DNA of 64,000 nucleotides, from positions 1-64,000 of the forward strand of contig NZ_JACSDK010000015.1 of NCBI RefSeq assembly GCF_014925385.1. The letters run 5' to 3'. Shown in pieces: positions 2,973-28,149 of the stretch. The notes beneath the pieces are model-generated. The model was not told the DNA's origin. It ran no database searches and saw nothing but the letters and a program-made list of their open reading frames with translations. The translations under genes were made by a program, and so were the position numbers. The stretch's first letter is position 1, and every line of letters begins with the position of its first letter. The DNA comes from Pelagibius marinus. Lineage in GTDB: Bacteria; Pseudomonadota; Alphaproteobacteria; Kiloniellales; Kiloniellaceae.

Positions 2973-3409
2973 TACCTTGCAGCTTATTCGCACGACTCAC
3001 ATGGCGCGTCCGACGTCGCCGGCCCAGGACTCCAGACATACTAAGGTATTCCGCCGGAAGGGAGAGTTGCTCAAACCCGATACGCTATCGAAGGCTGCAT
3101 TAAGCCTGCTCAGTCCCAACAATGCTTTTGATCTCGAGGCCAAGTTCAGCAGGAGTAGTTGATCGGGACGTAGTCTGTCGGACATGCCAACTGTCTAGTT
3201 TCGTAGGTGAGCGCCTATTCTAAACAATGCATTAGGTCGTGTTCTCTCATAAACCTGACGCATGGGAATATGTACATTTTCTGACCGAACTACAGCCAGT
3301 AGATCGCTGGCCCTTCCCTCACCAGCACCCGTGCTACCGCAACTATGGGTGAAAATTAAAGCGCGTGCTGGTATCGAATTGCTGCTGTTTCCAGTATTGT
3401 CGATTCGCT
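2973..3409. other. Intergenic stretch upstream of the STAND NTPase
   Basis: 437 bp with no convincing gene. A 53-codon open frame on the plus strand (3001–3162, starting MARPTSPAQD) has no recognisable similarity and no clear ribosome binding site. The downstream part is AT-richer and probably contains the promoter of the 3410–8014 gene. I could not place a −35/−10 pair with confidence. Confidence 0.35.
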
Positions 3410-6400
3410 ATGTCCTCCTCGACAACAACTCATCTGGCGGCTCTGCGGAAAGCCCTTCTTGCACTCCGACCTACAGGAGATGCGGGATTTGAAGGGATGC
3501 TCGCTTTAGTCTTGTCTGAAGTCTGCGGCCAGCCATTCCGCCTTGCCTCTGGTGGATCGCAACGAGGTCGTGATGGCGATTCTGCATTCGACGATGGTGC
3601 AACTCTTTTTGAGGGAAAGCGCTACGAGAAGTCTGTGCCGAAACGGGAAATCGCTGACAAGCTAATGGATCTAAAGGTCGACAACCAAGGCCAAGTCGAT
3701 CTTTGGGTGATGGGCGCTACGGCCCCAGTTCCAGCTCTAGACGCCAAGGATTTCCGGTCTCTAGCAGAAAATGAAGGCATTGGAATTGTCCTTCTGGACT
3801 GGGCCGATGCGACAACGCTGCCGCCTCTCGCGCTAGCAGTAGCGATGGCGGGGCAGGCGGCAAAGCAATTTCTGCATGATAACCTAGCTAGCTTGGTAAA
3901 TGAGTCCGACTTACAAGCGGCCCTCGACGCGATCGACCTCATAGCAGCACTTCCGAACTTTGGAACGTTCGCAGAAAATCTGCAGGCTGAACTTAGGAAA
4001 CCGTCCACTGGCTTGGGGCTCGCCAAAGCGGCGAGTCACGACTGGCTATGGTCGGTATTTTCGAACCAAAGACTCGCGCGGCAGCATTTTGGTCAGCCTC
4101 TTGCCCCCAGAGATCCAGGTGGCATATGCGATTATCCAAGAGGAAGCTTGATCAAAGAGCTTCAGCCTGCATTCACTGGTTCACCCTCTACCAGTATCTT
4201 TGCGGTCATTGGCACCGAAGGTGCTGGCAAATCATGGTTGGTCGCTGACACGTGGCTTAGCACGACTCCTGCCTCACTTCTGGTTCTAGCGACAGCGGGC
4301 GAGCTTCAAGATCCGGAGGATATACTCGAGCCAGAGAAATTTCTCATTCGAAAGCTAATTCATCAGACGAGTAGCATCTTTGATGAAGCAAGCGAAAAAC
4401 GGTGGCGCCGCCGCTTTGCGGCATGGTGCGCCAATCCCAATCCTGAAAACATCCGCATCACTTTGTGCGTCGATGGCCTCAATCAGTCTCCTAAGTTTCC
4501 ATGGCCGCGCTTTATTGATGCGGCCTCGCTTCTACTGGATAAGCTTGGAGGGCAGCTCGTAGTCACTACGCGCATCACACACTTCCCGACGATACGAAGG
4601 GCAACTGCGCCCGCAATAAAACGTGTGACCGTTCCGGAGTGGACGAAGGCAGAGTTGGAAGAGATCCTTCGAAAGCGCGGCGTCGATCCCGATGTGCTGA
4701 GCGAAGACGTCTTCAGCACGCTAAAGAATCCGCGAATTCTCGGAATCGCTGTCAAATTGCTCGATGCTCGCGAGATCGAAAGGATGGAGGATCTCAGTGT
4801 GGGGCGGCTTCTGTTCGAACATTTAAGGCAGTCCAACGTCACAGGGGCTTCAGTAATTTCTCCGGAGGAGTTCGCGAAAGCCTTGCAGGAAATGGCTGCG
4901 GAGCTTGTGGAGCGTTTAAAATCGCATGACAAAGATGATCTCAGGCTCTTTGATGCGAGGCTCCATGAAAGGCTTTCAGACGTTGCCTCTAGTCTCTTCT
5001 TTAAGCCTGTCGGCGACGACCCTGATCGAAATGAGATTGTAGAAGAAGGGCTGCAAATCGCACTGGGTCTTTGGCTTGTCGAGGCTCTCGAGAAGGAAGA
5101 GCGAAATAATCGCGATCCGTCGGCCCAGCTCGAAGCGATTCTAGAACCCGTTACCCCACTCGATATGACTGCTGAAGTGGTGGCATCCGCAGCCGAGATA
5201 GCGTGTTTGCGCGATCCTTGTCCAGTGTTGGTCGCCGCTAGTCTTATAGGCCACTACGCCAACATGCAAAATGCATCGGAGGTGAGCCTTGCGTCAATTG
5301 GCGCATTGGTGAAAAAAAAGCCGGAGGCTTTCATTCGAGCCGTTAAGGATGCCTCTCTTGCCCAAGAGCATGTTGATCGCTTGGAGTGGCTCACTAGTGT
5401 TATTCTTGCTGCGCGAGATGATGCAAGCGTGCAAGGTGTTCTTTCCCGTGAGTTAGCTGAGTGGCTTTCGTACTACTCTCTTGCACCAGAGCGGATGTTG
5501 GGGGGTGTTCCAGTGAGCGGTTCGGCAGAGCAAATTGAGGCCGAGCGCCAGAAGGCGACAAAGCGGCTCGAAAAAAAAATGGAAAATCTGACTAAGGGGG
5601 AACGCAGCTATATTGAGAAGCACCTAATCCGTCATGACGATGGGGATCTGGATCACCTCCATAGGCAAGCGCTCTTTCTGCTTGCCGGGATGCCCCTGGC
5701 GCCGTTCGCTCCATCTCTGTTCGCGTGGGCCTTCGCAGATGCACTAAATACATCACTTTATGCGCCAAATCAGGAGTTCGGTTGGCTCATTCAGTCTAAT
5801 AATCTTGACTGGGAGGCGACCCGGACAGCCTTGCTTGAAGTCGTGGAGACATTTTCAGTGTCCAGGTCGGAGGTGGGCGATTGGGCAGTAGTAGCCATAC
5901 TCCATGGCACTGGAAATGAAGTCGATGCGGCCAGAGGCCACGAATTGTTCGAGCATCTTACGAGGGACCGAGAGAAGATAGGTTCTTGGCGTTTAGTCGA
6001 AACATACTGTGCGACAGATCCATGCGATCCAGCTGCCGTGCGACCAGAGAATATCGATCAGACTGCAAAGAGATTTCGAGAGATTGACGTGGATAAGTTG
6101 TGTCTCTCGCTGGGGGCATCGACCGAGGATCACTTCTTTCAAGCGGCCATGCCTGGAATGGCCCGCTTTGCGCCAGAGGTTGGGGCAAACACAATACGGC
6201 GTTTTGCAGCACAGACGTTGCAAAGGGAGGGATTACAGCGGAGGCAGGCAGTGTTGAGCCTTCTGCGGCATAGCATTCTTCTGGATAGAGCTACGATAGA
6301 TGCCTTTGTCTTGGCAGCAATATCCTTTAAGGCTGGCGCCTCGGGAGAAAAGAATGAGATCGCGCGCGATGATTGGATTGTATCGCAGTACTCGCTGCTA

Positions 6401-8014
6401 TTTGCACTTCCCCATCTTTCCGGCGATGAGCAGTTTCGCGCGCTGGCCGACAAGAGAACAGGCAATACTCTTCTAAAAATCGTAGCTTCGCTTAAACCGG
6501 CCGATGGCGCGTTGGTCGAATCGCTTTTAGAGCAGGCGGTAGCTGAAGGCAATGATGAAAAGATTGCCCGTATCCTGGCAGCTGTCGAATACACGAATTG
6601 CCTTCTGACACAGCGTGCAAGAGAAATTGTTGTCGAGCTTTTGTGTTCAGAGACTGGCAGCGTTCGGGCGCCGGCACTCGGAATTGCAGCGAGCACTGAG
6701 GACCCAACATTATTGCGGGCTGTTGTTGATAGTGGCTGGGACGCTGGTCGTCTGGTGCCGGAGAGTGATCACTTCGAGGTCTGGTATGGGTCAGCGGCGC
6801 TGGTTGCTGCGGTCGACGTCGGACTAATAGAACTTCCCGACGCACTGGATCGAATGGCATTGAGTCACTATGGGTTTACTGCTGCACGACTTGGCGTTGG
6901 CAGGGCGAACCTGGTAGCAGATAGGATTGAGTTGGCTCTTGCGAAGGTCATGAGGCTGCCAGAGCTTTCCGATTTGCCGGGAATGGAGCGCGATGCTCCG
7001 TCCGGTCCTACTTCGTCGCCACCTCTAGTCGGCGTGCGGGACGAAGCAATGCCGACAGACCCACAAGCAGTTTTTGAAAGAATGGCGGAGTCCGACGAGC
7101 AATTCGAGGAGCGACAGCAGCGCCTTCGTCAAGCGTATAGTCGCTTCAGTAAGGATCTTACCAATGCCGACGCTCGTCTTGTTCTGGAAGATCTGACATT
7201 TGATGGGCTTGAGGTAGTCGTAGCTTCCAGACCAGATGTTGTTGAGCGGTGGTGTTCCTGGCTCTTGTGCGCGGATGACTCAAAGAAGAGAGGCCTCTGC
7301 CGGTTCGCGGTACAGTTTGCAAGCGCTATCGCGAAGGACAATACTAAAGAAGCTATTGAGCTATTTCGTGCCTACGCCAAGGTCGATCCACTCGTGCGGC
7401 ACGTAACCGGGCTAGCAAAGATTCCAGCGGAAATAGAGGCGTTATGGCGCCATGCGGATATTCCTGAAATCGCCGCCGAATGTGTAAATCGGCTTGATCA
7501 AGCCAGTACCGATCGCGAATTGGCCCTCGAGGTCGTGGCTGCATTCCGTGCGGGTCAGGCTGCAATTGTTGAAAGCCATATAAAGAATCTCATTGCTACG
7601 GGGAGGCCAGCATCGATTGCCCGCGGAATTGCAGTCGCGGGCTTCTGCGATCAGTCCGAGTTTGCCGACCAGATATTACTTAGATATAGGACATCTAGCG
7701 GATTCATTGGTGCAGCCCATCGCGCTGCCAGGCGTGCATATGATCGAAATGTGTGGTCACGCCACTGGTGGGAGAAGATGGGGGCCGCAACCGATCGGCT
7801 CGATTTCTGGCGCTACTCAGTTCTTCTAACGAAGATAGTCGATGTGCGATTTGAACTATGGGCAGGTGAGGTGGCGGACGATACGCTACTCAGCACCTTT
7901 TACGTGACCATAGAGGACGGGATAAAGAAACGCATCAAGAGATGGAGCGACAAGCGTCGCGACCAGCTATTTGGCAGAAAGGCACCTCCAAGCATTTTTG
8001 TGTCACGGAGTTGA
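3410..8014 (+). CDS. Avs-like STAND NTPase with N-terminal nuclease domain
   Basis: A 1,534-residue protein. I chose the ATG at 3410 because homology-like sequence begins there; the frame is open 45 bp further upstream. Residues about 20–75 look like an Mrr-type nuclease: GDAGFEGML, then RDGD (Asp55/Asp57), then FEGKRY (Glu68, Lys70), a D…E-x-K site. The NTPase follows: Walker A GTEGAGKS near residue 268 and Walker B ITLCVDG with Asp355, then a helical winged region. The remaining ~1,000 residues are helical and repetitive with no catalytic motif, as expected for a sensor. Nuclease–STAND–helical-repeat order and length match antiviral Avs proteins, where a phage protein bound by the C-terminus triggers oligomerisation and nuclease attack on DNA. 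Target and subtype cannot be read from sequence; closest by architecture to Mrr-type Avs4. Confidence 0.75.
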   Translation: MSSSTTTHLAALRKALLALRPTGDAGFEGMLALVLSEVCGQPFRLASGGSQRGRDGDSAFDDGATLFEGKRYEKSVPKREIADKLMDLKVDNQGQVDLWVMGATAPVPALDAKDFRSLAENEGIGIVLLDWADATTLPPLALAVAMAGQAAKQFLHDNLASLVNESDLQAALDAIDLIAALPNFGTFAENLQAELRKPSTGLGLAKAASHDWLWSVFSNQRLARQHFGQPLAPRDPGGICDYPRGSLIKELQPAFTGSPSTSIFAVIGTEGAGKSWLVADTWLSTTPASLLVLATAGELQDPEDILEPEKFLIRKLIHQTSSIFDEASEKRWRRRFAAWCANPNPENIRITLCVDGLNQSPKFPWPRFIDAASLLLDKLGGQLVVTTRITHFPTIRRATAPAIKRVTVPEWTKAELEEILRKRGVDPDVLSEDVFSTLKNPRILGIAVKLLDAREIERMEDLSVGRLLFEHLRQSNVTGASVISPEEFAKALQEMAAELVERLKSHDKDDLRLFDARLHERLSDVASSLFFKPVGDDPDRNEIVEEGLQIALGLWLVEALEKEERNNRDPSAQLEAILEPVTPLDMTAEVVASAAEIACLRDPCPVLVAASLIGHYANMQNASEVSLASIGALVKKKPEAFIRAVKDASLAQEHVDRLEWLTSVILAARDDASVQGVLSRELAEWLSYYSLAPERMLGGVPVSGSAEQIEAERQKATKRLEKKMENLTKGERSYIEKHLIRHDDGDLDHLHRQALFLLAGMPLAPFAPSLFAWAFADALNTSLYAPNQEFGWLIQSNNLDWEATRTALLEVVETFSVSRSEVGDWAVVAILHGTGNEVDAARGHELFEHLTRDREKIGSWRLVETYCATDPCDPAAVRPENIDQTAKRFREIDVDKLCLSLGASTEDHFFQAAMPGMARFAPEVGANTIRRFAAQTLQREGLQRRQAVLSLLRHSILLDRATIDAFVLAAISFKAGASGEKNEIARDDWIVSQYSLLFALPHLSGDEQFRALADKRTGNTLLKIVASLKPADGALVESLLEQAVAEGNDEKIARILAAVEYTNCLLTQRAREIVVELLCSETGSVRAPALGIAASTEDPTLLRAVVDSGWDAGRLVPESDHFEVWYGSAALVAAVDVGLIELPDALDRMALSHYGFTAARLGVGRANLVADRIELALAKVMRLPELSDLPGMERDAPSGPTSSPPLVGVRDEAMPTDPQAVFERMAESDEQFEERQQRLRQAYSRFSKDLTNADARLVLEDLTFDGLEVVVASRPDVVERWCSWLLCADDSKKRGLCRFAVQFASAIAKDNTKEAIELFRAYAKVDPLVRHVTGLAKIPAEIEALWRHADIPEIAAECVNRLDQASTDRELALEVVAAFRAGQAAIVESHIKNLIATGRPASIARGIAVAGFCDQSEFADQILLRYRTSSGFIGAAHRAARRAYDRNVWSRHWWEKMGAATDRLDFWRYSVLLTKIVDVRFELWAGEVADDTLLSTFYVTIEDGIKKRIKRWSDKRRDQLFGRKAPPSIFVSRS

Positions 8015-9053: not shown

Positions 9054-9464
9054 TTGACCGATAGCAATAATGCTATACCTTCTTGGACATTCCGCACCTA
9101 TGCGTCTCGAAGCGGGCGCTGCGAAGTTGAAGAGTGGTACGATTCGCTCACGCCAAAGGCGCAGGCTAAGGTCTTGGTTCGCCTGGAGTATCTGGCACAA
9201 CAGCCGCGGAGCGGTTGGCAACGCCCCCATTTTGCGCCGCTGCATGGAGAATGCAGTGGCCTCTACGAGGTGCGGTGCAAAGTCGAGAAGGTCGAGGTCA
9301 GATTGATCGGCAATTTCGGACCGAACAGACAGGACTTTACGTTGCTGCTCGTTGCTGAAGAACGCGGCGGCAAGTTTCGGCCGCCAAGCAGTTGTTCAAC
9401 AGCACAGGATCGTTGGAAGGAATTGAAAATAGAACCGGAGCGAGCCCATGAGTGGAAACCTTAG
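9054..9464 (+). CDS. RelE/HigB-like toxin (phage Gp49-like)
   Basis: A 136-residue protein of the RelE/HigB superfamily, mRNA interferases that cleave transcripts at the ribosome. Seen: RSGRCEVEEWYDSLTPKAQAKVLVRLEYL (helical hairpin), HFAPLHGECSGLYEVRCK and a VRLIGNF strand, the usual 'gLyElR…RLi' pattern. The start is uncertain: the TTG at 9054 overlaps a possible promoter, and the family core begins near WTFRTY (9081). The 3' end overlaps the antitoxin ATG by 17 bp, a typical coupled arrangement in the toxin-first HigBA order. A TATAGCAA/ATGCTATA repeat around 9026–9078 could be the autoregulatory operator. Confidence 0.75.
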   Translation: MTDSNNAIPSWTFRTYASRSGRCEVEEWYDSLTPKAQAKVLVRLEYLAQQPRSGWQRPHFAPLHGECSGLYEVRCKVEKVEVRLIGNFGPNRQDFTLLLVAEERGGKFRPPSSCSTAQDRWKELKIEPERAHEWKP

Positions 9465-10095
9465 GCAGTCGCTGGTTGAGAAACTGCGCGACAAAGCGTT
9501 TCGGCATGAATACATGGCCGAACACATCAGAACTGGCATCGCCTACCAAATACGCGCGCTACGGGACAAGCGTGGATGGTCGCAGCAGGAGATGGGGCGG
9601 CATCTGAAGAAGCCACAGAGTGTGGTTTCACGTTTGGAAGACCCAGACTATGGGCGCGTTAGTCTTCAGACGCTCATTGAAGTAGCCGACGTATTTGACG
9701 TGGGAGTCTTGGTGCGCTTTGTCGGTTACAGGGAGTTGTTGGAGAGAACCAGTGACCTTTCACCGGCCGCGTTGCTCGCACCAAGCTTTGATGAAGAAGA
9801 AAGTGCGCCTGTTACGTACAAAGCTGTTCAGGGTACTTCGGCGGCATCGGAAGGGGCACGGTCTGGAACAGAGCAATCGACATGGTCCCGCAATACTCTG
9901 TATTCACTGACTCTCGATGACCCAGAACGGCGCAGGCAAGGTCAGGCAACAATTACTCAATCGGAGCGAGAGCGAAACGCTTTGAGTCTGCAGAGAGGCT
10001 CATCCGCAATTCAAACAGATTCCATTGTTGGTTCCGCTAATCGCTTCCCTACGCTCACCCGTGCAGGATACCTTTTGGACCATGCGACTCATTAA
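9448..10095 (+). CDS. XRE-family antitoxin with long C-terminal extension
   Basis: A 215-residue protein. Residues about 30–95 form a helix-turn-helix of the Cro/C1 (XRE) type (ALRDKRGWSQQEMGRHL … SVVSRLED … LQTLIEVADVFDVGVLVRFV), the fold of HigA-like antitoxins. These bind the toxin and repress their own promoter. From about residue 115 there is an unusual ~100-residue polar, low-complexity extension that such antitoxins normally lack. It overlaps the toxin gene upstream by 17 bp and the third gene downstream by 14 bp, so all three are probably translated together. The extension may contact the third protein. Confidence 0.75.
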   Translation: MSGNLRQSLVEKLRDKAFRHEYMAEHIRTGIAYQIRALRDKRGWSQQEMGRHLKKPQSVVSRLEDPDYGRVSLQTLIEVADVFDVGVLVRFVGYRELLERTSDLSPAALLAPSFDEEESAPVTYKAVQGTSAASEGARSGTEQSTWSRNTLYSLTLDDPERRRQGQATITQSERERNALSLQRGSSAIQTDSIVGSANRFPTLTRAGYLLDHATH

Positions 10096-12090: not shown

Positions 12091-15000
12091 ATGGCAAGCG
12101 AGCACAGCGATCTCAGAAGCCTAGTCGGACGGACCCACGAAGGCCGCCTCATCCCCGTTCTGGGGTCGGGTGTCGGTGTGGTGGCGGGACTTCCTAGTTC
12201 TCGTGAAATCACACAATTACTTGCCGAGGAGATAGGGATCGCCGACGAAGACCGCGCCATCGATCTTTCGACAGTTTCCGAGATGTTTGTGGCGAGGACC
12301 AGCAAGCAAGCGCTGGAGCGCAGGCTGGCAGAAATATTCTCCGGGCCTCGACGACCCACACCGATTCACCAGCACCTAGCCCGGCTATCGGGCGTTCAGA
12401 TATTCATCTCGACTGGGTACGACGATCTTCTTGAAAGGGCGCTGGACGCGGAAGGCAGACAGTACGAAACCATTAGCTTCCAAGAGAGTGAAGAACTCGA
12501 GGCCGTTTATGTTTCCGTAAAAGGGGAGCGTCATGTCCTGCGCAGGAATGACCCGGAGCTAAGTAAGCTTGAGCCGTTCACGCCTTTGGTGATCAGATTG
12601 TTCGGGGGAGGGGTATCACGATCGTACGAGCCACGCTTCGTCGTGACTGAAAGCGAACTAGTTCATCTGGCGAAGTCGCTGCCCGAGATCATCCCAAGCC
12701 ATGTTCTCGCTCGCATCAGGACATCATCCCTTCTGTTCCTCGGCTTATCGGCGACCGGAATGGCTACTCAGATGACTCTGAGCTCACTGCTCAGAGATCG
12801 CGCGACCTCAAGCCCAACGAGTTGGGCTGTCCTTCCGCTTAGTGATGTGGCGAGCAACGAGGTCTTCACGCGATTCGGGGTGACAGTTATCGAGGGCGAA
12901 TTGTCTAATGTAGTCGACTCTCTATCGCAGCAGGTAGAGTTCTCGAGGGCCTCTGCAGAAAGCCGCCGGCGGGACAGGCAAGCAACAAGTAACAGTGATT
13001 CCACAGAGGAAGAGCCGGAAACACAGTCTGACGTGGACCGCGCACGCCCGATATCAGTTGCGGATGTCGTGGCTGCAGCAGCAGGAATTGACGCGGATAT
13101 TACGACAGATGGCGAAGGCCTACTGGCGGCGGCAGTCGCACTTCTTCCACAGAAGAGGGCGGAGAACGATGTCCTGTCCACTTCCACCCTGTTCCTCGCG
13201 GCAGTCGAATGGGGGCTGGGTCGGGCTGGTGTCCGAGAGCCGCCTAAGCCCCTAGCTAGTCTGGCTCACGCGCTCGTCTCGTCGAGGGAAGGACCTTACG
13301 ACGAACTCCGCACCGAATTCTTTCAGACAAATCCCCCGACTATAAAGCTTGAGATTGGAGGAGAGGAAATTCCATCCTTTGATCTTTCAAGCAACTTCAA
13401 ACAAGCGTATCGAGACGCTGCTGCTGAAGGATCCGTCACCGCGACCGCACTGGTGCGGTCCTTGCTCCGCCACGCTGCGTCTCCTGCTTACACCGGTACC
13501 TGGTTTCGAGATCGGCTTGAGAAACTCGAAGTATCACCGTCCCTACTGGAGATGACTCTTCTTCCCGGCGCCTCCACCCATGCAGCTAGCGATCTGTGGA
13601 CCGTCGATGACAAGCTCGGCTATGCTGAATACGCAAGAGCTATCTTCCATTTCTTGAGGGATCCGCGGACGCATCCACCGCTAACTATCTCAATTCAAGC
13701 GCCATGGGGCGGCGGCAAGACCTCGCTGATGCGGATGATTCAGCGCGAGTTGGATCCTGTAGGCTATGCGCGTGCCCAACCCAGCTCGCTACCAGCGAGC
13801 GCGCCTGCAAAAGGCGCCTCAGCGGAGACGCTCCTTGATGAGCTCCGGGAAATGGCGAATGGTAGGGCCAGTGAGATACGGATGAACTTGGGCGAGGGAG
13901 GCACATTTCCGACTATCTGGTTTAACGCGTGGACCTACCAGAGCGGCAACCAGTTCTGGGCTGGTCTTGGGGAGGCGATCGTTCGTGGGCTGACCATGCG
14001 GCTTGATCCTGTCCAGCGTGAGAAGTTCCTCTTGCGACTGCACCTCGCTCGCGTTGATCCGCATGCCATTCGTCGAAAGGTCTACGCGGCAGCAGCTCAG
14101 CACTTCCTCAATTTCCTGCGTAGTGGCCTCAAGTGGGTGTTAGCCATCGTCGTACTTCTTACGGCGGCTATAATTGCCGGTATTGGTTTAGCATACGATC
14201 TTAGTCAGGAGCTCCTCGGCTGGACCGTCTCGGGTTCGGCACTCGCTGGTTTGGGAACCGCTCTTGTGGGGTATGCCAGAGCACTGTTCAAGGCCAAAGC
14301 CGAGCCGGCGCAGTTCAGCCTTTCCGACTTCCTTGACATTCCCAACTATTCGGGTGAGCAAGGCTTTGTACATCAAGTGAACGATGACCTACGCCGAATC
14401 TTAGACATCCTACCCTTTGTCGAGGGGGCCGATGGTGAGCCTCTCCGCGTCCCCATCGTGCTGTTCATCGATGACCTGGATCGATGCTCACCAGTTAAAG
14501 TCGCCGAGGTTTTTGAGGCGATAAATCTCTTCATCGCAGGCGAGTTCCCGAATTGCTACGTTGTTCTAGGCATGGACTCAGAGATTGTGGCCGCAGCTTT
14601 GGAGGAGGCCCACAAGGAGGTTGTTGCTCGCCTGCCGGCCTATAGTCGGCAGACGGCGGTAGGCTGGCGTTATATGGACAAATTCGTCCAATTGCCGTTT
14701 GTTATTCCTCCGATCGATCCGGAAGCCGTCAAACTCTATGCGGTCCACCTGGCCGCCCGAGAGAACTTGGCAGCGAACCAGGCCCAAGTCCGAGCAGCGG
14801 CACTCGATCGTCGAAGTCTTGAGGACTCGATTGCCGAAATTCAGCACGAGGTCGAGGAGGATGAGCAAGTCGCACAGCGACTCGCAGAGAAGCATGGGCT
14901 CGAGGGCCAAGTTGGCGAGGCCCTGGCTCGAGAGATCATGGAACGGGACCAGCGGCTGGAGTTCATCGACGCGCGTGCGGAACTTTTGAGCCAGGACAGC

Positions 15001-15510
15001 AGTGAGATTGAGGCATTGCTGCAACAGGCCCATGCTGAGTTCTCCAATAACCCGAGAGAGCTCAAACGCTTAGTAAACGTGTATCGGTTCTACATGAATC
15101 TACGCTTGGCGCGCGAGTCGCGTGGCCAATCAATCCCGACCATTGAGCAGACTCGAAATTGGGTAATGATGATGCTGGCTTGGCCGGAGTTCTATCGATG
15201 GATTCGGCGCAGCCATACGGAATGGGAAGCTGAAGCAAGTGACTTGGAGGCTGCAGAGACCGGGCGACTTCTTAAAGAGTTGGAAGATCTGGCCATCAAG
15301 CCAATCGAAAAGTTGAACGGGACGAACGAGAAGTCAGAGATGGTTGAGCCAACTTTGGAGGACTGGACGAGCGGGCTAGAAAGCCGAAGCGGTCTTTCCA
15401 AGGAGACCCCTTGGTTATCGGACGAACGCCTCTTCCGCTTCTTTCAGCGTGTCGCGAATGCGGGACACGAGGCCTCGTTGGCGGCAGGAGCAGGAAAGGG
15501 CTTCTGGTAG
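12091..15510 (+). CDS. SIR2-like–KAP P-loop NTPase fusion, candidate defence protein
   Basis: A 1,139-residue protein (ATG at 12091, GAGG ribosome site). Residues about 18–290 are SIR2-like: LIPVLGSGVG..AGLPS (25–36), FISTGYDDLLERAL (~105–118) and VIRLFGGGV…VVTESEL (~168–190). Active SIR2 NADases have Asn in 'TNYD' and His in 'LHG'; here they are Gly109 and Phe171, so NAD hydrolysis is doubtful. A helical Clp-N-like region (~330–500) follows. Then a KAP NTPase: Walker A APWGGGKTS (537–545), two membrane helices (~680–735) inside the domain, Walker B VLFIDDLDRC (Asp794), then a coiled coil (~910–960). KAP NTPases are membrane-bound and include the phage-exclusion protein PifA. I infer a single-gene antiphage system with membrane action; no described system with exactly this architecture comes to mind. 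Confidence 0.8.
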   Translation: MASEHSDLRSLVGRTHEGRLIPVLGSGVGVVAGLPSSREITQLLAEEIGIADEDRAIDLSTVSEMFVARTSKQALERRLAEIFSGPRRPTPIHQHLARLSGVQIFISTGYDDLLERALDAEGRQYETISFQESEELEAVYVSVKGERHVLRRNDPELSKLEPFTPLVIRLFGGGVSRSYEPRFVVTESELVHLAKSLPEIIPSHVLARIRTSSLLFLGLSATGMATQMTLSSLLRDRATSSPTSWAVLPLSDVASNEVFTRFGVTVIEGELSNVVDSLSQQVEFSRASAESRRRDRQATSNSDSTEEEPETQSDVDRARPISVADVVAAAAGIDADITTDGEGLLAAAVALLPQKRAENDVLSTSTLFLAAVEWGLGRAGVREPPKPLASLAHALVSSREGPYDELRTEFFQTNPPTIKLEIGGEEIPSFDLSSNFKQAYRDAAAEGSVTATALVRSLLRHAASPAYTGTWFRDRLEKLEVSPSLLEMTLLPGASTHAASDLWTVDDKLGYAEYARAIFHFLRDPRTHPPLTISIQAPWGGGKTSLMRMIQRELDPVGYARAQPSSLPASAPAKGASAETLLDELREMANGRASEIRMNLGEGGTFPTIWFNAWTYQSGNQFWAGLGEAIVRGLTMRLDPVQREKFLLRLHLARVDPHAIRRKVYAAAAQHFLNFLRSGLKWVLAIVVLLTAAIIAGIGLAYDLSQELLGWTVSGSALAGLGTALVGYARALFKAKAEPAQFSLSDFLDIPNYSGEQGFVHQVNDDLRRILDILPFVEGADGEPLRVPIVLFIDDLDRCSPVKVAEVFEAINLFIAGEFPNCYVVLGMDSEIVAAALEEAHKEVVARLPAYSRQTAVGWRYMDKFVQLPFVIPPIDPEAVKLYAVHLAARENLAANQAQVRAAALDRRSLEDSIAEIQHEVEEDEQVAQRLAEKHGLEGQVGEALAREIMERDQRLEFIDARAELLSQDSSEIEALLQQAHAEFSNNPRELKRLVNVYRFYMNLRLARESRGQSIPTIEQTRNWVMMMLAWPEFYRWIRRSHTEWEAEASDLEAAETGRLLKELEDLAIKPIEKLNGTNEKSEMVEPTLEDWTSGLESRSGLSKETPWLSDERLFRFFQRVANAGHEASLAAGAGKGFW

Positions 15511-16200: not shown

Positions 16201-17523
16201 TCAAGGCTTTGCATCAAGGTCGAATCCGACGGCTTGTTCCCATTTGTCAGAGGCCGCCCGCGGCCGGCGGCGACCGAAATCACTCCAAAGTTTTTCGAAG
16301 AAAGGTTCGAGGACGCGATAGATGCGTATCTCGTAGTGATCGATAAGGTAGTCCTCAATGCACTCATGACCGAAGTTTGTGCCAAATGTGCCGTCACCGA
16401 AGTCAAAGGAATAGTCTCTGATCTCCCGAAGTCCTGCAACACATCTCAATGGGAGGGGGAGCATTAGAACGTCGCGCGCGAACCTCAGGTACTGGGACAA
16501 GGTGACCACTAAGCCTTCCTCGAGCATGTGGGGGGCGATAGTCGGACGAGAGTTTTCCTCTCTCCCCCTAGTTCTTTCGGGATCAAGAAGCCAGGTGTCG
16601 ACACCCCAAAGCTCTCCATTCGTGAACGCCTGCGTCGCACCAAAGGCGTAAGCATCCTTCCTATTCTCAGCTGTCTTGCTCAGATCGATTGTGAAAGCCG
16701 CCGCACCCTCTTGATTTCTCGCATAATAGAACGCGCCTTTTGTCTGATGGCCCATAAGGTCCCGGACGTTTCCCGACGGTAGCCATGCGCGGAGGTCAAG
16801 CGGGTCAAAGCTTCCAGTTTGCTCTGCCGGGATCAGTCGCAGAAACATTTGCGGACCAGGACAAAGCCAGACCTTCGTGTCACCCTCCTGCAACGGATGT
16901 TGCGGGTCGATCCGACCTAACAGCGACACTGGAAAGACGTTGTCATCTTGACGGCTAAAGACTGTTCCGAAGTCAGAGGTCGGCGGTTTGTCTTGTTCGC
17001 TTTCGAGAAGGCCAGCCGAGATAATCTCGCCGAACGCCCGTTCAAGGCTTTTGACCAGCGCCTTTCTGGCTTTGTCTCGTTGATCTTGATCGGGATTCTC
17101 AGGGAGGTGGTAGGTAAGCGGTCTATTCTTATGCCGCATGTCGAATGGCCGGTCGGTCTCCCAATTGCCGTACGCGGTGTTGAAGACGGGCAGGATCCTG
17201 CTGTCTCCTACGGTCGCGGTCGCACGCCCGTATTCAATCATCACATTCGGATTAGGCATCGGCCGTTTGGCGCCGGCCTGAGTGACAATCGAGATGTCGG
17301 GAACGAAGATTCCGCATCCGTCGATACGCTCGAAGATAGTCCGTGCAACATCGACGTTCCCGGGCGCCCCCCGAACACCATCCTCCGCCCTCAGTGCGTT
17401 TTCGCGACCGAGTTCTGCGTGAAGGCTCTTGATTGCACGGTCAATACAGTCGCCAATGAAGCCGCGGTTTGTGCTGTTCGGCAGATCACTTTGCCAGGAA
17501 TAGAAGACCGTCTGTGTCATCAT
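16201..17523 (-). CDS. TIR-like domain protein
   Basis: A 440-residue protein. Residues 1–150 look TIR-like: the opening strand VFYSWQSDLPNSTN, a helix DCIDRAIKSLHAEL, then GAPGNVDVARTIFERIDGCGIFVPDIS, and NPNVMIEYG with Glu97 in the position of the catalytic TIR glutamate. Such 'FYSWQSD' proteins are related to bacterial TIR NADases that deplete NAD on infection. The remaining ~290 residues are an unrecognised sensor-like region with WLCPGPQMFLRLIP and a large acidic/aromatic tail. It is followed upstream on the same strand by the MNT–HEPN gene (19 bp apart), so the two are probably co-transcribed. NADase activity is an inference from fold only. Confidence 0.65.
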   Translation of the reverse strand: MMTQTVFYSWQSDLPNSTNRGFIGDCIDRAIKSLHAELGRENALRAEDGVRGAPGNVDVARTIFERIDGCGIFVPDISIVTQAGAKRPMPNPNVMIEYGRATATVGDSRILPVFNTAYGNWETDRPFDMRHKNRPLTYHLPENPDQDQRDKARKALVKSLERAFGEIISAGLLESEQDKPPTSDFGTVFSRQDDNVFPVSLLGRIDPQHPLQEGDTKVWLCPGPQMFLRLIPAEQTGSFDPLDLRAWLPSGNVRDLMGHQTKGAFYYARNQEGAAAFTIDLSKTAENRKDAYAFGATQAFTNGELWGVDTWLLDPERTRGREENSRPTIAPHMLEEGLVVTLSQYLRFARDVLMLPLPLRCVAGLREIRDYSFDFGDGTFGTNFGHECIEDYLIDHYEIRIYRVLEPFFEKLWSDFGRRRPRAASDKWEQAVGFDLDAKP

Positions 17524-17542: not shown

Positions 17543-18493
17543 CTAGCGTTTGCCGGCGTTGCGGGCGAGCTTGGCGAGATGCTTCTTGCAAGCGGCTTCG
17601 ACCAGCTTGTGAAGTCGCTGCGTGCACTCTCCGAGCCAAAGCAAGGCCTCCCGCTCGATCTTGTAGTGCTTTGAGTAGCGCGCTTTCACGTAGGCCTCGA
17701 CGAGCAGATTGAACCAGGCGCGGTGAGCGGCCAGCTCGCGCGGCCAGGCCTCCACAAGGCTTCGGTCTTGGTCTTCGGCGAGCGATCGCAGGAACTTGAT
17801 GTTGTGCGCTGGCGGCGTGTAGTTGGTTAGCGTCAGAAGCAGCCCCGTATAGGCATTCTCAACCGCCTGATGCAACAAGAAGGCAGGTTGCTTTGTCCGG
17901 CCTTTGTCTAGCAAATAGCGTGCGGTATCGAGGAAATCCTCTGCTGTTGGGATCCGATCCTCGAAGTGCTCCTTGGCGGTCTCATACGCCTCCCTAGGCG
18001 AGCACGGCTGGGGATCGGTGAGCGGCTCGTCATCCAGCTCGTAGAGGACGACGCCCTCCTTGCGGATGTCGGTGAAGAAATACTGCCCTTTGCGGATGGC
18101 CTCGTTCACCTCCCGCCGGCTGTGCACGATGAAGCTGACCGGGGTCTTGATAGCGCGGTCGTGCATGAAGCGGTCGCTGGCCTTGTGCCAGTAGGGCTCG
18201 AACTCGGCCAGCTTCTTGTTGTTGACGATGATCAGCAGATCGAAGTCGGAGCGGTAGCCCTTGGTGGTGTGGGGCTCGTCTACCCAGGAGCCCCGGGCAT
18301 AGGACCCGAAGAGGATGACCTTGAGGATGCGCCCGCGCTTCTTCCAGTCGGCGCTGGAGCCCTTGAGGGCGTCCTCGAACTCCTCGTGCAGGATCTCCAG
18401 CGCCCGCTCCAGTTCGCGCTGCTTCTTCGGCGGCAGGTGATCCAGGCTGAACTTCATCTTCGGGAGGGGGGCCGGGTTATCGGGAGGAGCCAA
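17543..18493 (-). CDS. MNT-type nucleotidyltransferase fused to HEPN domain
   Basis: A 316-residue fusion. Residues about 20–150 are a minimal nucleotidyltransferase: VILFGSYARGS (Gly63–Ser64) and SDFDLLIIV with Asp83 and Asp85. Residues about 165–300 form a HEPN helical bundle (AKEHFEDRIPTAEDFLDTARYLLD, AAFLLHQAVENAYTGLLL-like, YVKARYSKHYKI). In two-gene MNT/HEPN toxin–antitoxins, the MNT adenylylates and silences the HEPN RNase; here both are in one chain, and the 'RY..(H/Y)' end resembles the sacsin-type HEPN rather than the classic R-x4-6-H RNase motif. Start is a TTG at 18493 with AAGG upstream; MKFSLDH at 18457 is an alternative. It lies upstream of the TIR-like gene. Confidence 0.8.
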   Translation of the reverse strand: MAPPDNPAPLPKMKFSLDHLPPKKQRELERALEILHEEFEDALKGSSADWKKRGRILKVILFGSYARGSWVDEPHTTKGYRSDFDLLIIVNNKKLAEFEPYWHKASDRFMHDRAIKTPVSFIVHSRREVNEAIRKGQYFFTDIRKEGVVLYELDDEPLTDPQPCSPREAYETAKEHFEDRIPTAEDFLDTARYLLDKGRTKQPAFLLHQAVENAYTGLLLTLTNYTPPAHNIKFLRSLAEDQDRSLVEAWPRELAAHRAWFNLLVEAYVKARYSKHYKIEREALLWLGECTQRLHKLVEAACKKHLAKLARNAGKR

Positions 18494-20034: not shown

Positions 20035-21789
20035 ATGCGCATCCGACACATCGAAATCAAAAATTTTCGCGGCATCCAATCCCTCTGCTGGGCTCCAGGG
20101 CAGAGTATGAATTGTTTGATTGGACCGGGCGACTCAACGAAAACGACGGTGCTTGATGCTATCGAGCTCGCCTTAAATCCGCGCAGTTACTTCCTTGGCG
20201 ATGACGCCGACTTCCACAATCTCGATGTGGAACAGCCCGTCAAAATCACGCTTACAATGGGTGATCTTCCGGTCGAATTCCTCGCGGAAAACAAATACGG
20301 GCTTCACCTGCGCGGCTGGGATGCGGCTGCGGAACAATTGCACGACGAACCGGACGGCACGCTTGAAGAAGTGCTCTCGCTCAGGGTCACGATCGATAAA
20401 TCACTCGAGGCCCGGTGGTCGCTTTTCAATGAGCGCATCGCGCAGGCCGAAGGCGATCCACCGATGATCCGCTACAAGGACATGCAGACGCTTGCCACAT
20501 CGCGGCTCGGCCCCTATGCAAAACGCCATCTGGGCTGGGGTCGCCAATCCGTCTTAAGCCAGATCGAAGAGTCCGGTGAAAGCGTCAATCTCAGGCTGGC
20601 GGAGGCCGGCCGCGCGGCGCGCTCGGCATTCAAGGAGAGCGGCACGGACGTATTCAGCGCGACGGTCGAAAAGGTGCAAAAGCTCAGCGCTGATTTTTCC
20701 GTTCCGGTGAGAGACAAGTACAAGGCTGAACTCGACGTACAATCCGTCAGCGTCAGTACTGGCGGCATCGCGTTGCACGACGGCGCGCTGCCGCTGCGCC
20801 GGCTGGGAACCGGCTCCTCACGGCTCCTGGTGTCTGCCCTCCAGCACGAAGCCGCGAGCAGCTCCCACGTTGCGCTGATCGACGAAGTTGAACACGGGCT
20901 CGAGCCTCACCGCATCGCAAGGCTTCTCAAATTTCTGAAGGGCAAGAAGACGACGCCCTCCGGCGACGTGCGCTCACAGATATTCCTGACCACCCATTCC
21001 CCGGTGGTCGTTCGTGAACTTGATGCTGGCGATATTTTCACCGTCCGCGAGACGGGCGGCGATGTAGGCGTGCGCTCCGCCGCTTCGACCCCGGAGAACG
21101 CAAAGAAAATCCAGGCCCATCTGCGCGTCTCTCCTGAAGCCTTTCTCGCAAGACGCGTGCTTGTCGGCGAAGGGCGGACAGAAGCAGGTTTGCTCCGCGG
21201 GCTTGATAGCTGGTGGACTGATAACGGCAAGCCGTCATGCGCTTATCAGGGCGCGGTTATCATTCACGGCGACGGCAAAGATTCGGGTCCCGATATCGCT
21301 GAGTCTCTGCTTGACCTCGGCTATCAAGCCGCCTTGCTGCTCGATTCGGACGAAGCCCCAAATCCGCAAACTCTTGACCGTGTGCGCTCCAAAGGCGGCA
21401 AGATCGTCCAATGGGAAGGAGACGTTTCCACCGAGGGCCGGTTGTTTGCCGATCTCAAATGGGAAGCCGTGCGCGAGGTCATGGACTACCTCACCAGCGA
21501 ACTCGGTGAAGACGCGATCCGCGCCCACATCAACAACGTTCTGGCCGAATCGCAATCTCCACCTCTTGGCGATCTCACCTTTCCGGCAGCACTGGACACC
21601 AAGGCTTTCCGGCAAACGCTCGCGGCAGCCGCTGTCGCCAAGAAAGGACAAAAGCGCGCCTCGTGGATTAAAGACTTGGGACGCGCCGAAGCCATCGGGT
21701 ACATGATTGGCGCCGACCTCGGCGCGACCGCCGGCACACCATTTGCCGCCGGCATAACCAAGCTCCGGCAGTGGATCGATGGCGGATGA
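20035..21789 (+). CDS. gajA: Gabija GajA, OLD-family ATP-dependent endonuclease
   Basis: A 584-residue protein, close to the ~578 residues of the Bacillus GajA. The N-terminal ABC/SMC-type ATPase is clear: MRIRHIEIKNFRGIQ, a P-loop variant GPGDSTKTT (~residues 30–38, Thr where the second Gly is usual), signature-like RRLGTGSSRLL, Walker B VALIDEVEHGL and TTHSPVV. The Toprim nuclease follows: LVGEGRTEAGLL with the catalytic Glu near 380, and LLLDSDEAPN as the DxD. GajA nicks/cleaves DNA when nucleotide pools fall during phage infection. The gene overlaps gajB by 11 bp, the standard Gabija layout. Confidence 0.92.
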   Translation: MRIRHIEIKNFRGIQSLCWAPGQSMNCLIGPGDSTKTTVLDAIELALNPRSYFLGDDADFHNLDVEQPVKITLTMGDLPVEFLAENKYGLHLRGWDAAAEQLHDEPDGTLEEVLSLRVTIDKSLEARWSLFNERIAQAEGDPPMIRYKDMQTLATSRLGPYAKRHLGWGRQSVLSQIEESGESVNLRLAEAGRAARSAFKESGTDVFSATVEKVQKLSADFSVPVRDKYKAELDVQSVSVSTGGIALHDGALPLRRLGTGSSRLLVSALQHEAASSSHVALIDEVEHGLEPHRIARLLKFLKGKKTTPSGDVRSQIFLTTHSPVVVRELDAGDIFTVRETGGDVGVRSAASTPENAKKIQAHLRVSPEAFLARRVLVGEGRTEAGLLRGLDSWWTDNGKPSCAYQGAVIIHGDGKDSGPDIAESLLDLGYQAALLLDSDEAPNPQTLDRVRSKGGKIVQWEGDVSTEGRLFADLKWEAVREVMDYLTSELGEDAIRAHINNVLAESQSPPLGDLTFPAALDTKAFRQTLAAAAVAKKGQKRASWIKDLGRAEAIGYMIGADLGATAGTPFAAGITKLRQWIDGG

Positions 21790-23254
21790 CATAGATGAAG
21801 AGGCCGCCAAGATTGCCGCGAGCATCGAACGCGGCAGTATCGTCGCTGCCGCCGGCTGCGGCAAAACCGAGCAGATCGCCCGAGCGACGCAGGCATCGAC
21901 AGGCTGTCGCCTTATCCTGACCCATACCCACGCTGGCGTCGATGCGCTCAGAGCTCGACTGAAGAAGCGAAAGGTGCCGGAGGCCAAATATCGGATCGAT
22001 ACGATTGCCGGATGGGCGCTCCGGTTCGCCGCTTCCTATCCGCAGCGCTCTGCCATTCCGGTTGCCGAGCCGTCGGGCAAAGAATGGAACGGTATTTACC
22101 AGAGCGCGGCGGCACTCGTGCGCAGCGGCGCCGTTTCGCGCGTGCTCAAAGCCTCATATGACGGGCTCTTTGTTGATGAATACCAGGACTGCACGGCGGA
22201 CCAGCACGAGATCATTTGCGCGCTCGCGTCTCATTTCCCGACCTGCGTCTTTGGCGATCATTTACAGGCGATCTTCGATTTCAAAGGCCAGAAGCCTGTC
22301 GAGTGGGACAAGGACGTTTTCCCGGCTTTTCCAAAATGCCATGAACTCACCACGCCCTGGCGCTGGAAGAACGCGGGAAACGAGGGTATGGCCGGCTGGC
22401 TGAAAGGCGTCCGTACTGTTCTGGACAACGGCGCCAACTTGGATTTTTCCAACACAACCCCTTGCGTGCACTGGTTCCAGATACCGCCTCCTTCCAAATC
22501 CAATCCGATTCAGGCGCAGCGCCGGCAGATCATCACCGAGGCGTTCCGCGGCATCGAATTGGACAGCGATGAAAATCTCGTGATTATGGCCGACAGCGCG
22601 AATCCGAAATCACGCGCATCACTTGCAAAGCATTTTTCCAAGTGGGGCTGTTCCAATATCGAGGCGATCGACTGTCCGGACCTTTTTAAGGCTGCCGCTG
22701 GCCTTGAGGGTTGCGCCGGCATGGCACGGCTCGAAGCCGTGCTCGAATTTGCGGCGACCTGCATGACAGGCGTGGAGAAGGCGCCGCTTCTCAGTTCGGT
22801 CAACTCGCACCTAGCAGGCGGAAAAGCCGGGGCAAAGAAGTTTGCCGATCTCATTCCACTATGTGTTGAAATCACGCGGGCGGGCGGCTACCACCTTGTT
22901 CTCGCCTTGCTCACCGCGTTGCACGGACGGGCGCAGACCCGCGCATACCGCCGTGAGATGTTCTATTCCATGTGCACCGCGCTCAGGCTCATGGGCACAG
23001 GGCAACTTGCGAGCCTGACGGATGCGGTATGGCAGGCCCAGAATCGGACCAGGCATCGCGGCCGAGTTCTTGGCACGCGAAATGTCGGCAGCACACTTCT
23101 TGTGAAGGGTCTTGAATTTGACCACGCCCTGGTTATTGACGCGCAAGGCCTTGACCGAAAGCACCTGTACGTCGCACTGACCCGGCCAGTTCGTTCGCTC
23201 ACGATTCTCTCTTCTTCGCCGCAGTTTGCACCCAAGCGTTCTAAGAGTTCTTGA
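21779..23254 (+). CDS. gajB: Gabija GajB, UvrD-like helicase
   Basis: A 491-residue superfamily-1 helicase, matching the ~494 residues of the reference GajB. Motif I is AAAGCGKTEQI (~residues 20–30), motif II GLFVDEYQDC (~125–134), motif III-like CVFGDHLQAIF, motif IV/VI region near the end with LVKGLEFDHALVIDAQG and YVALTRPVRSLTIL. In Gabija, GajB associates with a GajA tetramer and senses DNA ends or unwound DNA, adding to nucleotide depletion and DNA damage. ATG at 21779 lies within gajA. No third gene is required for this system. Confidence 0.92.
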   Translation: MADDIDEEAAKIAASIERGSIVAAAGCGKTEQIARATQASTGCRLILTHTHAGVDALRARLKKRKVPEAKYRIDTIAGWALRFAASYPQRSAIPVAEPSGKEWNGIYQSAAALVRSGAVSRVLKASYDGLFVDEYQDCTADQHEIICALASHFPTCVFGDHLQAIFDFKGQKPVEWDKDVFPAFPKCHELTTPWRWKNAGNEGMAGWLKGVRTVLDNGANLDFSNTTPCVHWFQIPPPSKSNPIQAQRRQIITEAFRGIELDSDENLVIMADSANPKSRASLAKHFSKWGCSNIEAIDCPDLFKAAAGLEGCAGMARLEAVLEFAATCMTGVEKAPLLSSVNSHLAGGKAGAKKFADLIPLCVEITRAGGYHLVLALLTALHGRAQTRAYRREMFYSMCTALRLMGTGQLASLTDAVWQAQNRTRHRGRVLGTRNVGSTLLVKGLEFDHALVIDAQGLDRKHLYVALTRPVRSLTILSSSPQFAPKRSKSS

Positions 23255-23652: not shown

Positions 23653-24741
23653 TCAACTTGGCTGAATGCCACCATAGCGTCTTAGTCCAGCTCCCGACAT
23701 AGTGTCTATAAACCTGGGCCTTTGCCTTATCCGAAGTTTCGGAAGATGCCGCGGAACAATCGGGGGGACACTTTCGACGTGGATCAGGCCACCCTTCGTC
23801 GAAGCGGCAAACTCTTCATCTGTAGCGACTGAAAACCTTTTGCTTCCTTCGAATTTTTGTTCTTCGTCCTCAACTGCAATATTTACTCGCAGGGTGCTCT
23901 CAGGCTTTGAGTTTTCCACTTCCTTTAGCGCTTCGACGGTTTGCGTTGTATCTCCATAAGGCGATAGAACGACTACGTCGTTGCTGAACAGATAAACAAG
24001 TTGGTTCAAAGCGATGGCGTCTTTTTCCTTAAGCTTGCATGTCATACCTTCTCGACCATTCAACTCATAGACATGGCGATCGAACGCGAAAAAGCCTAGC
24101 TTGGGCGTCAATGGCAGATAAACATACAAGCCTGCACCACCAAGCCCCCAGTTTCGGTACTTCATGTACCTTTTCAACACTAGTTTGTTTGATGAAACAG
24201 CTGGGTTATCAGACATCACAAAGCCAGTCTTGGATTTGTTGACTAGCAGAACACACCGAAGGTCTGAAATGGTGTCAAAGAAAACCCTTGCACTGTCTAA
24301 GACCATTTCCATTGCTTCCGGACCCTCCATAGGCGGGCCGAGGAAGTCTTCGAGTTCGTCATTTTCTTTTTGCCCTAAAGCAACCTTCTCACGCATAGAG
24401 GACATCATCAGCAACCGGTCCTTTATCGCCTTTTCGGCTCGCAGATGCTGTAAAAGCCAGAGAAACAACAGTTTATCGAGATCTTCTTTCGCCGGTGTTT
24501 GAGACTCAGTCAGCTTATTGACAACATCTCCGAACATCCCCTCAGGGGTATTGAAGAATTCCTCGATTCTTAAATCCTTGCCGTACAAATAGCTCTTTGA
24601 GCACTGATCTCTGATCGAAGCGCCAAAAACCAACTTATCAAGCTTTGGAATCCAGATGTTGACTTGCCGTTTTTGACTATCCGTAGAAAAATTTTTTAGA
24701 TGAACTTTCGGAACAAAATGTTGGTTTTTCTTTTCGGCCAT
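23653..24741 (-). CDS. DUF4238 domain protein
   Basis: A 362-residue protein with the DUF4238 opening motif NQHFVPKVHLKNFS at residues 6–19, a predicted strand IWIPKLDKLVFG, then CSKSYLYGKD, and a middle helical part (LDKLLFLWLLQHLRAEKAI). The segment FVMSDNPAVSSNK followed by YLPLTPKLGFFAFD is typical of the family. Function is unknown; DUF4238 genes are often found near restriction and other defence genes and on prophages. The basic C-terminus (KLRIRQRPRF) is longer than usual. It has lower GC than Gabija and so may have a separate origin. Convergent with gajB. Confidence 0.8.
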   Translation of the reverse strand: MAEKKNQHFVPKVHLKNFSTDSQKRQVNIWIPKLDKLVFGASIRDQCSKSYLYGKDLRIEEFFNTPEGMFGDVVNKLTESQTPAKEDLDKLLFLWLLQHLRAEKAIKDRLLMMSSMREKVALGQKENDELEDFLGPPMEGPEAMEMVLDSARVFFDTISDLRCVLLVNKSKTGFVMSDNPAVSSNKLVLKRYMKYRNWGLGGAGLYVYLPLTPKLGFFAFDRHVYELNGREGMTCKLKEKDAIALNQLVYLFSNDVVVLSPYGDTTQTVEALKEVENSKPESTLRVNIAVEDEEQKFEGSKRFSVATDEEFAASTKGGLIHVESVPPIVPRHLPKLRIRQRPRFIDTMSGAGLRRYGGIQPS

Positions 24742-25250: not shown

Positions 25251-26357
25251 TCACGCGACATCCACCAGCGAATAGCTGGTGCTACGTCCCCCTCCCTCGT
25301 CTCTGGTGAGAATTCCGCGGTTCAACAGATCGGTGATGTCACGCAACGCCGTATCGGGCGAACACTTCTCGATCTTTGCCCACTTGGACGATGTGAGCTT
25401 GCCGTCGAATCCATCGAGTAGCCGGTTCAACATGTTGCGCTGCCGCTCGTTCAGTGGGTTGGCGGCATTCCTTTCCCAGAAGCGCGCTTTCTTCAGTACG
25501 CCAGCCAGGACGTGCTCCGCGCCCTCAAATGCCCGTGACAGACACGCCAGAAACCAAGTCAGCCATTCGGTTATGTCGAGATCGCCCTTCTGCGTCATTT
25601 CGAGGATCTCGTAGTATGCTTTTCGCTCCTGCTGGATTTGCGCGGACATGCTGTAGAAGCGTTGGGCGCTTTGCTCAGAGCGGGCAAGCTGCATGTCGGC
25701 GATGGCGCGAGCGATCCGTCCGTTGCCGTCTTCGAACGGGTGAATGGTCACAAACCAAAGATGGGCAACGCCCGCCTTGAGCACGGGATCAATGCCGCCC
25801 TCGTTGTTGAACCAGTCAAGGAAAGCTTTCATGGCGCCGGCAACGCGTGCCGCCTGCGGCGCTTCGTAGTGAACGCGCTCACGCCCGACCGGCCCGGAGA
25901 TCACCTGCATCGGTCCCGAGTTATCGTCGCGCCAGGCGCCGACCGTGATCCGCTGCATCCCGCTGCGCCCGGTCGGGAACAACGCCGCGTGCCAGCCGAA
26001 CAGCCTCTCGTCGGTCAATTTCTGGCCATAGTTCTGGGTCGCGTCGAGCATCATCTCGACAACGCCCTCCACATCACGATCCGTTGGGACAAGGCCGCCG
26101 ATGTCCATGCCGAGGCTCCGGGCAATGGATGAGCGCACTTGGTCGCGATCGAGGATTTCTCCCTCGATTTCGCTGGTCTTCATGACGTCCTCGGTCATGG
26201 TCCGGAGCATCGCCTCACCGCGCAGGTCAAAGCCGAGCCCCTCCATACGGCCGATCAGCCGCCCCTGCCGGTGACGGACGGTGGCAAGCGGTTCCACCAG
26301 AACCTCGTGGTCCCAGCGTAAATCCGGCCAGTTCGGTAATTCATGGATATAGGGCAT
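25251..26357 (-). CDS. Fic family protein (DUF4172 N-terminus, winged-helix C-terminus)
   Basis: A 368-residue protein. I take ATG 26357 (MPYIHELPNWPDLRWD) as start, since DUF4172/Fic proteins begin so; the frame is open 45 bp upstream. The N-terminal DUF4172 carries the inhibitory helix motif TSEIEGE, placing it with N-terminally autoinhibited (class II) Fic proteins. The catalytic loop is HPFEDGNGRIAR (around residues 210–221), complete with His, Asn and Arg, so AMPylation of a target protein is likely. The last ~70 residues (NERQRNMLNRLLDGF … DTALRDITDLLNRGI) form a winged helix. Together with the palindromes over its promoter, this suggests the protein regulates its own gene. Confidence 0.85.
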   Translation of the reverse strand: MPYIHELPNWPDLRWDHEVLVEPLATVRHRQGRLIGRMEGLGFDLRGEAMLRTMTEDVMKTSEIEGEILDRDQVRSSIARSLGMDIGGLVPTDRDVEGVVEMMLDATQNYGQKLTDERLFGWHAALFPTGRSGMQRITVGAWRDDNSGPMQVISGPVGRERVHYEAPQAARVAGAMKAFLDWFNNEGGIDPVLKAGVAHLWFVTIHPFEDGNGRIARAIADMQLARSEQSAQRFYSMSAQIQQERKAYYEILEMTQKGDLDITEWLTWFLACLSRAFEGAEHVLAGVLKKARFWERNAANPLNERQRNMLNRLLDGFDGKLTSSKWAKIEKCSPDTALRDITDLLNRGILTRDEGGGRSTSYSLVDVA

Positions 26358-26458
26358 ATTCTCCGCACTCCTTGCGGAGAATATGCCCTCCTTTCTCCGC
26401 ATCGGTCAAGGCTATTCTCCGCATGATATGCGGAGAAAACCAGGGTCAATCTCCGCAT
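26352..26458 (-). promoter_or_regulatory. Palindromic operators over the Fic promoter and start codon
   Basis: Five copies of TCTCCGCA (or its complement). One is a perfect 16-bp stem, GGGCATATTCTCCGCA at 26352–26367 with its complement at 26373–26388 and a 5-base loop; it includes the Fic start codon (26355–26357). Another is TTCTCCGCAT / ATGCGGAGAA at 26415–26424 and 26428–26437. Single half-sites lie at about 26,392 and 26,449. Likely binding sites for the winged-helix domain of the Fic protein, giving negative autoregulation. Confidence 0.75.
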
Positions 26459-28073: not shown

Positions 28074-28149
28074 TGGTGCCCAGGGGCGGAATCGAACCAC
28101 CGACACCATGATTTTCAGTCATGTGCTCTACCAACTGAGCTACCTGGGC
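28074..28149 (-). tRNA. tRNA-Phe (anticodon GAA), island attachment site
   Basis: On the minus strand, acceptor GCCCAGG/CCTGGGC with encoded CCA, standard D-arm GCTC…GAGC, anticodon stem CATGA/TCATG with loop CTGAAAA (anticodon GAA), and T-arm GGTGGTTCGATTCCGCC. The 3' end faces the integrase, and the island lies on that side. The 3' half normally serves as attB for such integrases and is preserved on integration. I did not see a second copy in the window, so the left junction lies to the left of position 1. Confidence 0.95.

Follow-up and report, generated by a model that had tools for sequence, protein, structure and literature searches.

A KAP NTPase fused to a SIR2-like domain with a degenerate active site in a defence island of Pelagibius marinus

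The SIR2-KAP gene and its genomic island

The analysed stretch of Pelagibius marinus DNA (64,000 nucleotides, hereafter the window) carries on its forward strand, at positions 12091-15510, an intact open reading frame with an ATG start at 12091 that encodes a protein of 1,139 amino acids. The same frame is open upstream as far as a TTG codon at 11734, which is the less likely start. The original prediction had described the product as a single fusion of a SIR2-like domain, a Clp-N-like helical part and a KAP NTPase, and the open reading frame, the Pfam matches and the alignments agree on this layout. The SIR2-KAP protein is a real and unusual protein.

The gene lies in a defence island. The G+C content is mostly 51-61% from base 1 to about base 28,000, as compared with mostly 60-75% beyond, and a tyrosine integrase gene (26909-28051) adjoins a tRNA-Phe gene (28074-28149). 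No direct repeats of at least 25 nt marking the island ends were found within positions 1-29000. The island harbors a complete Gabija pair on the forward strand (20035-23254), whose genes overlap by 11 nt and match GajA (5.6e-201) and GajB (5.7e-163). It also encodes an MNT/HEPN-type protein on the reverse strand (17543-18493), in which a nucleotidyltransferase is joined to a HEPN domain and which is weakly similar to Hailong HalB (1.3e-5) and to MntA. Further genes of the island encode a Fic protein (25251-26402) and, at 9054-10095, a Gp49-like toxin together with its HTH antitoxin. A DUF4238 protein is encoded on the reverse strand (23653-24741) in a stretch of 0.46 G+C within the island. 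On the forward strand, positions 3365-8014 encode a 1,549-amino acid protein that contains the P-loop-like motif GTEGAGKSW and matched nothing significantly in Pfam, NCBIfam, PADLOC or PHROG; it may be a large, as yet unclassified NTPase belonging to the island.

The convergent neighbor of the SIR2-KAP gene encodes, on the reverse strand (16201..17523), a TIR-like protein of 440 amino acids related to CAP12/Pycsar-TIR proteins, with a Pfam TIR family signal of 0.15 in the window protein and of 0.003 and 4.7e-6 in plasmid homologues. This protein begins with YSWQSDLPN, and its relatives, mostly annotated as hypothetical, are located on rhizobial, sphingomonad and enterobacterial plasmids. The two genes converge and are separated by 690 nt; this arrangement rules out an operon and leaves the TIR-like protein as no more than a lead to a possible partner of the SIR2-KAP protein.

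A SIR2 fold without its catalytic residues

The SIR2-like domain spans about residues 1-295 (12091..12990, forward strand), as indicated by Pfam, AlphaFold2 and Foldseek. The SIR2_2 profile (PF13289) matched residues 104-252 (E 2.4e-9; 37.8 bits versus a curated cut-off of 24.5), and the nearest solved SIR2 chains in a phmmer search of the PDB were ThsA (5.1e-7) and KomC (1.3e-4). A template-free AlphaFold2 prediction of residues 1-300 reached a pLDDT of 81 and a pTM of 0.83, and Foldseek placed KomC first, together with ThsA and DSR2, among the top PDB matches to this model (best E 3.6e-14, probability 1.00), such that the SIR2 fold expected from the original prediction was recovered. The alignment behind the model consisted of nine SIR2 relatives from viral contigs, one of them a near-copy of KomC, and the model is thus not independent of SIR2 sequences, whereas the Pfam and phmmer matches are.

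Alignments placed Gly109 (codon 12415..12417, forward strand) at the position of the catalytic Asn, opposite the Asn of the TTNYD motif of ThsA (N112) and KomC, and Phe171 (codon 12601..12603, forward strand) at the position of the catalytic His (ThsA H152), opposite the His of the K.HG motif. The catalytic Asn and His of SIR2 NADase effectors are therefore replaced at both positions, in agreement with the loss that had been noticed from the sequence alone. The GxSxxD signature is gone as well, since the SIR2-KAP protein has GLSATG at this place and lacks the aspartate, a loss that adds to the earlier observation. The active site was compared with those of 39 SIR2_2 relatives, of which 30 came from Pseudomonadota and the other nine from viral contigs. 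The catalytic Asn is present in 36 of these 39 proteins and the His likewise in 36; only one, a free-standing protein from genome G770, lacks both and has Trp and Met instead, and in two more Trp replaces the Asn. The loss of the active site in the SIR2-KAP protein is thus real and uncommon. As a separate observation, the free-standing SIR2_2 proteins with Trp at the position of the catalytic Asn (loci L023, from G770, L042 and L049), which carry DSWYD or DTWYD, constitute a second kind of degenerate SIR2.

In ThsA, the N112A and H152A substitutions abolished NAD cleavage, and NAD binding was lost too (PMC7272460). Because neither mutant was able to bind NAD, plain NAD is disfavored as the ligand of the SIR2-KAP protein, and its pocket may accommodate a molecule other than NAD, a protein, or no ligand at all.

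These observations bear on whether the SIR2 domain could be the effector after all. It would then be an NADase whose active site is unusual and which oligomerization of the KAP domain switches on, as in the SIR2-STAND protein Avs5. The order of the domains is that of Avs5, and KomC, ThsA and DSR2 have the same fold, but none of the three residues (the Asn, the His and the aspartate of GxSxxD) is retained, N112A and H152A each inactivate ThsA, and the homologues described below carry in place of SIR2 an EVE or a macro-like domain, neither of which is known as an NADase. We consider an effector role of the SIR2 domain improbable.

A shared KAP core with exchanged N-terminal domains

The SIR2-like domain is followed by a predicted Clp-N-like helical region (about residues 336-490; 13096..13560, forward strand), which was carried over by alignment from the Rhizobium homologue, the only protein in which Clp_N exceeded the Pfam cut-off (4e-4). 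The KAP P-loop NTPase domain occupies residues 511-1001 (13621..15093, forward strand) and matched KAP_NTPase (PF07693) with an E value of 1e-29 (104.2 bits versus a cut-off of 20), so that both profiles proposed for this protein scored above their curated cut-offs. Walker A (PWGGGKT, residues 538-544; 13702..13722, forward strand) and Walker B (VLFIDDLDR, residues 790-798; 14458..14484, forward strand) are intact. The hydropathy profile agrees with the two membrane helices that had been predicted within the P-loop domain: a strong one at residues 683-701 and a weaker one at residues 708-726 (together 14137..14268, forward strand), both located between Walker A and Walker B. A PDB search with the core gave no convincing sequence match, and a full-length AlphaFold model built from a three-sequence alignment had a pLDDT of 38. 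The protein ends in the tail GAGKGFW (15487..15507, forward strand).

The core formed by the Clp-N-like region, the KAP domain and the C-terminal part recurs in a few distant bacteria, with a completely different N-terminal domain. Homologues were found in an Erythrobacter metagenome-assembled genome (L001), in Janthinobacterium (L002), on a Rhizobium plasmid (L003), and in genomes G655 (L020) and G568 (L021). Their cores are 28-37% identical to that of the SIR2-KAP protein, except for the G568 fragment, which is 55% identical over 539 amino acids. Walker A and B are present in all complete homologues, the hydrophobic hairpin has an identical placement in every relative, and the C-terminal end is also conserved, the homologues finishing in G-[FYL]-[WY], with GAGxGFW in most of them.

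In the alignment with the Erythrobacter protein, homology begins at residue 337 of the SIR2-KAP protein, just ahead of the Clp-N-like region. The N terminus of the G655 homologue is an EVE domain (Pfam 2.1e-6, above the cut-off), and that of the Erythrobacter homologue, which matched EVE at 0.0039, below the Pfam cut-off, is related to the G655 EVE domain at a BLAST E value of 4e-14. The Rhizobium N terminus is weakly macro-like (Pfam 0.07; NCBIfam 0.02; sole PDB match 2dx6 at 0.3), and with a custom macro profile it scored above 200 shuffled sequences, but weakly, with an hhalign probability of 12%; these values are at best suggestive of a macro domain. The Janthinobacterium homologue has no N-terminal domain, and the G568 homologue, located close to a contig end, is cut off ahead of the P-loop, with stop codons upstream. 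The EVE-KAP proteins of G655 and Erythrobacter and the macro-like-KAP protein of Rhizobium thus share with the SIR2-KAP protein the core, the hairpin and the C-terminal tail, and differ from it in a swapped N-terminal domain.

EVE and macro domains belong to families that bind modified bases or ADP-ribose and are not known to act as NADases or to kill cells themselves. Ligand-binding domains of this kind occupy the N-terminal slot of the homologues, and this is our main argument that the SIR2 domain in the same slot may be a reader as well. The exchange of ligand-binding rather than toxic domains suggests that the N terminus serves to recognize something, the response being left to the membrane NTPase or to a partner lipase. 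The same comparison bears on a role of the SIR2 domain as a pseudoenzyme scaffold, a protein-interaction or assembly module that would recognize a phage protein or drive the formation of filaments without any nucleotide. We regard such a role as rather unlikely: filament formation is recurrent among immune SIR2 proteins (PMC12700824), and the pocket residues required for NAD binding by ThsA are gone (PMC7272460), but the EVE and macro-like domains that take its place in the homologues belong to families that bind ligands.

Candidate partner genes were found next to two of the homologues. The EVE-KAP gene of G655 is preceded, at a distance of 15 nt, by a gene for a patatin phospholipase that resembles CBASS phospholipase effectors (PADLOC 2.6e-23; NCBIfam CBASS_lipase 9.7e-15). 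The two genes form an apparent operon (L020, 2538-6965), and no description of this pairing was found. In Erythrobacter, a gene encoding a 718-amino acid membrane protein likewise ends 15 nt before the EVE-KAP gene; this protein is alpha/beta-hydrolase-like by eye only and had no Pfam, NCBIfam or meaningful PDB match. Upstream of the SIR2-KAP gene there is no such patatin- or hydrolase-like partner gene. The Rhizobium core gene is located among metabolic and catabolic genes, outside any defence island.

The core is rare. Among 385 genomes of the class it was detected at E 1e-60 in the Pelagibius genome and two others, and among 399 genomes of the phylum in the Pelagibius genome alone, besides one unrelated KAP protein. 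The candidate G325 was discarded as merely another KAP protein that does not have the shared core. Samples at class, order, phylum and family level (about 2,000 genome scans, in which many genomes recurred), plasmids, phages and viral contigs yielded no second SIR2-KAP protein. Viral contigs gave no relatives of the SIR2-KAP protein when its core or its SIR2 part was the query, the core was not found in the phage collection, and it was not met again in family samples of Erythrobacter, Janthinobacterium, G655 and G568. The SIR2 version of the core is so far known from one sequence.

The rarity of the family and the catabolic surroundings of the Rhizobium relative would fit a role outside defence, in which the protein would be a membrane KAP ATPase that serves some unrelated housekeeping or stress function and lies on the island by chance. 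The Gabija, TIR-like, MNT/HEPN and Fic genes nearby, the integrase adjoining tRNA-Phe, the patatin partner in G655, and the defence function of the KAP relatives QatA, PifA and Tmn argue against such a role, which we consider unlikely.

Relation to known systems and proposed function

The SIR2-KAP protein has the KAP P-loop domain in common with QatA, PifA and Tmn, none of which contains a SIR2 domain. It matched QatA (3e-18) and PifA (2.6e-15) in PADLOC over parts of the NTPase domain only, and its QatA equivalog score was 84.5 bits against a cut-off of 600. No qatBCD genes were recognized nearby, the neighboring genes searched having matched other families, and the PADLOC table contained no Tmn match to the SIR2-KAP protein. 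Tmn, which has been tested as a defence protein, is likewise a KAP NTPase and has two transmembrane domains, as the SIR2-KAP protein has two hydrophobic helices; the mode of action of such KAP NTPases has been called unexplored (PMC11846954).

The SIR2 fold is shared with KomBC, DSR2 and Avs5, all of them active NADases, and Avs5 too joins SIR2 to an NTPase. In Avs5, a SIR2 effector precedes a STAND NTPase, whereas the NTPase of the SIR2-KAP protein is of the KAP type and Pfam gave no STAND match. With Thoeris ThsA the protein shares the SIR2 fold, and a TIR-like gene adjoins its gene; unlike ThsA, it lacks SLOG and the NADase residues and contains an NTPase. Pfam recognized no SLOG or macro domain in it, and the TIR-like neighbor is convergent and weakly matched. 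In TM-macro ThsA, a domain for an NAD-derived ligand is joined to membrane helices (PMC11204291). The closest published idea that we found is that a KAP ATPase can stand in for STAND NTPases in conflict systems (PMC8195603). The original prediction named no described system with exactly this architecture, and we found no description of the same domain order, of EVE-KAP or of macro-KAP proteins in the open-access literature. The SIR2-KAP protein thus appears to be a variant of KAP-type defence NTPases not described before, whose function, ligand and mechanism we infer from its sequence.

We propose, as a reading whose chances we hold to be even, that the SIR2-KAP protein is a KAP-type membrane immune protein that acts alone or with a partner, with ligand recognition at the N terminus, a Clp-N relay and a response by the membrane ATPase. 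The SIR2 pseudoenzyme would recognize a ligand that is related to infection, for which a nucleotide or an NAD derivative is the most likely candidate and a phage protein a less likely one. The Clp-N-like region would pass the signal to the KAP ATPase, which the two-helix hairpin in its P-loop domain would anchor in the membrane. The ATPase would then change its assembly state and either disturb the membrane or activate a membrane-acting partner, so that phage production would stop. The role in phage defence, the direction in which the signal travels and the action at the membrane are likewise inferred. The original prediction had favored nucleotide sensing over NADase action, with the membrane-bound NTPase as the effector. 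The lost catalytic residues and the EVE and macro-like swaps fit sensing, the loss of NAD binding in ThsA N112A and H152A speaks against sensing of NAD itself, and the membrane NTPase remains the presumed effector. A more far-reaching version, which we regard as a long shot, places the protein in a rare class of membrane-bound KAP receptors of immunity whose N-terminal sensors (SIR2 pseudoenzyme, EVE or macro-like) are interchangeable. For the SIR2-KAP protein, the adjoining TIR-like gene would make an NAD-derived signal and the dead SIR2 pocket would read it; the pathway would resemble Thoeris, but with a membrane ATPase rather than an NADase at its end.

In the SIR2-NTPase immune proteins known to date, it is the N-terminal domain that acts as the weapon. 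In the SIR2-KAP protein, the N-terminal slot seems to hold a reader, and the weapon would be the membrane NTPase or a partner lipase, which would invert the usual layout. If this is true, SIR2 pseudoenzymes would have a role in immunity, and the SIR2-KAP protein offers a way into the mechanism of KAP NTPases such as Tmn.
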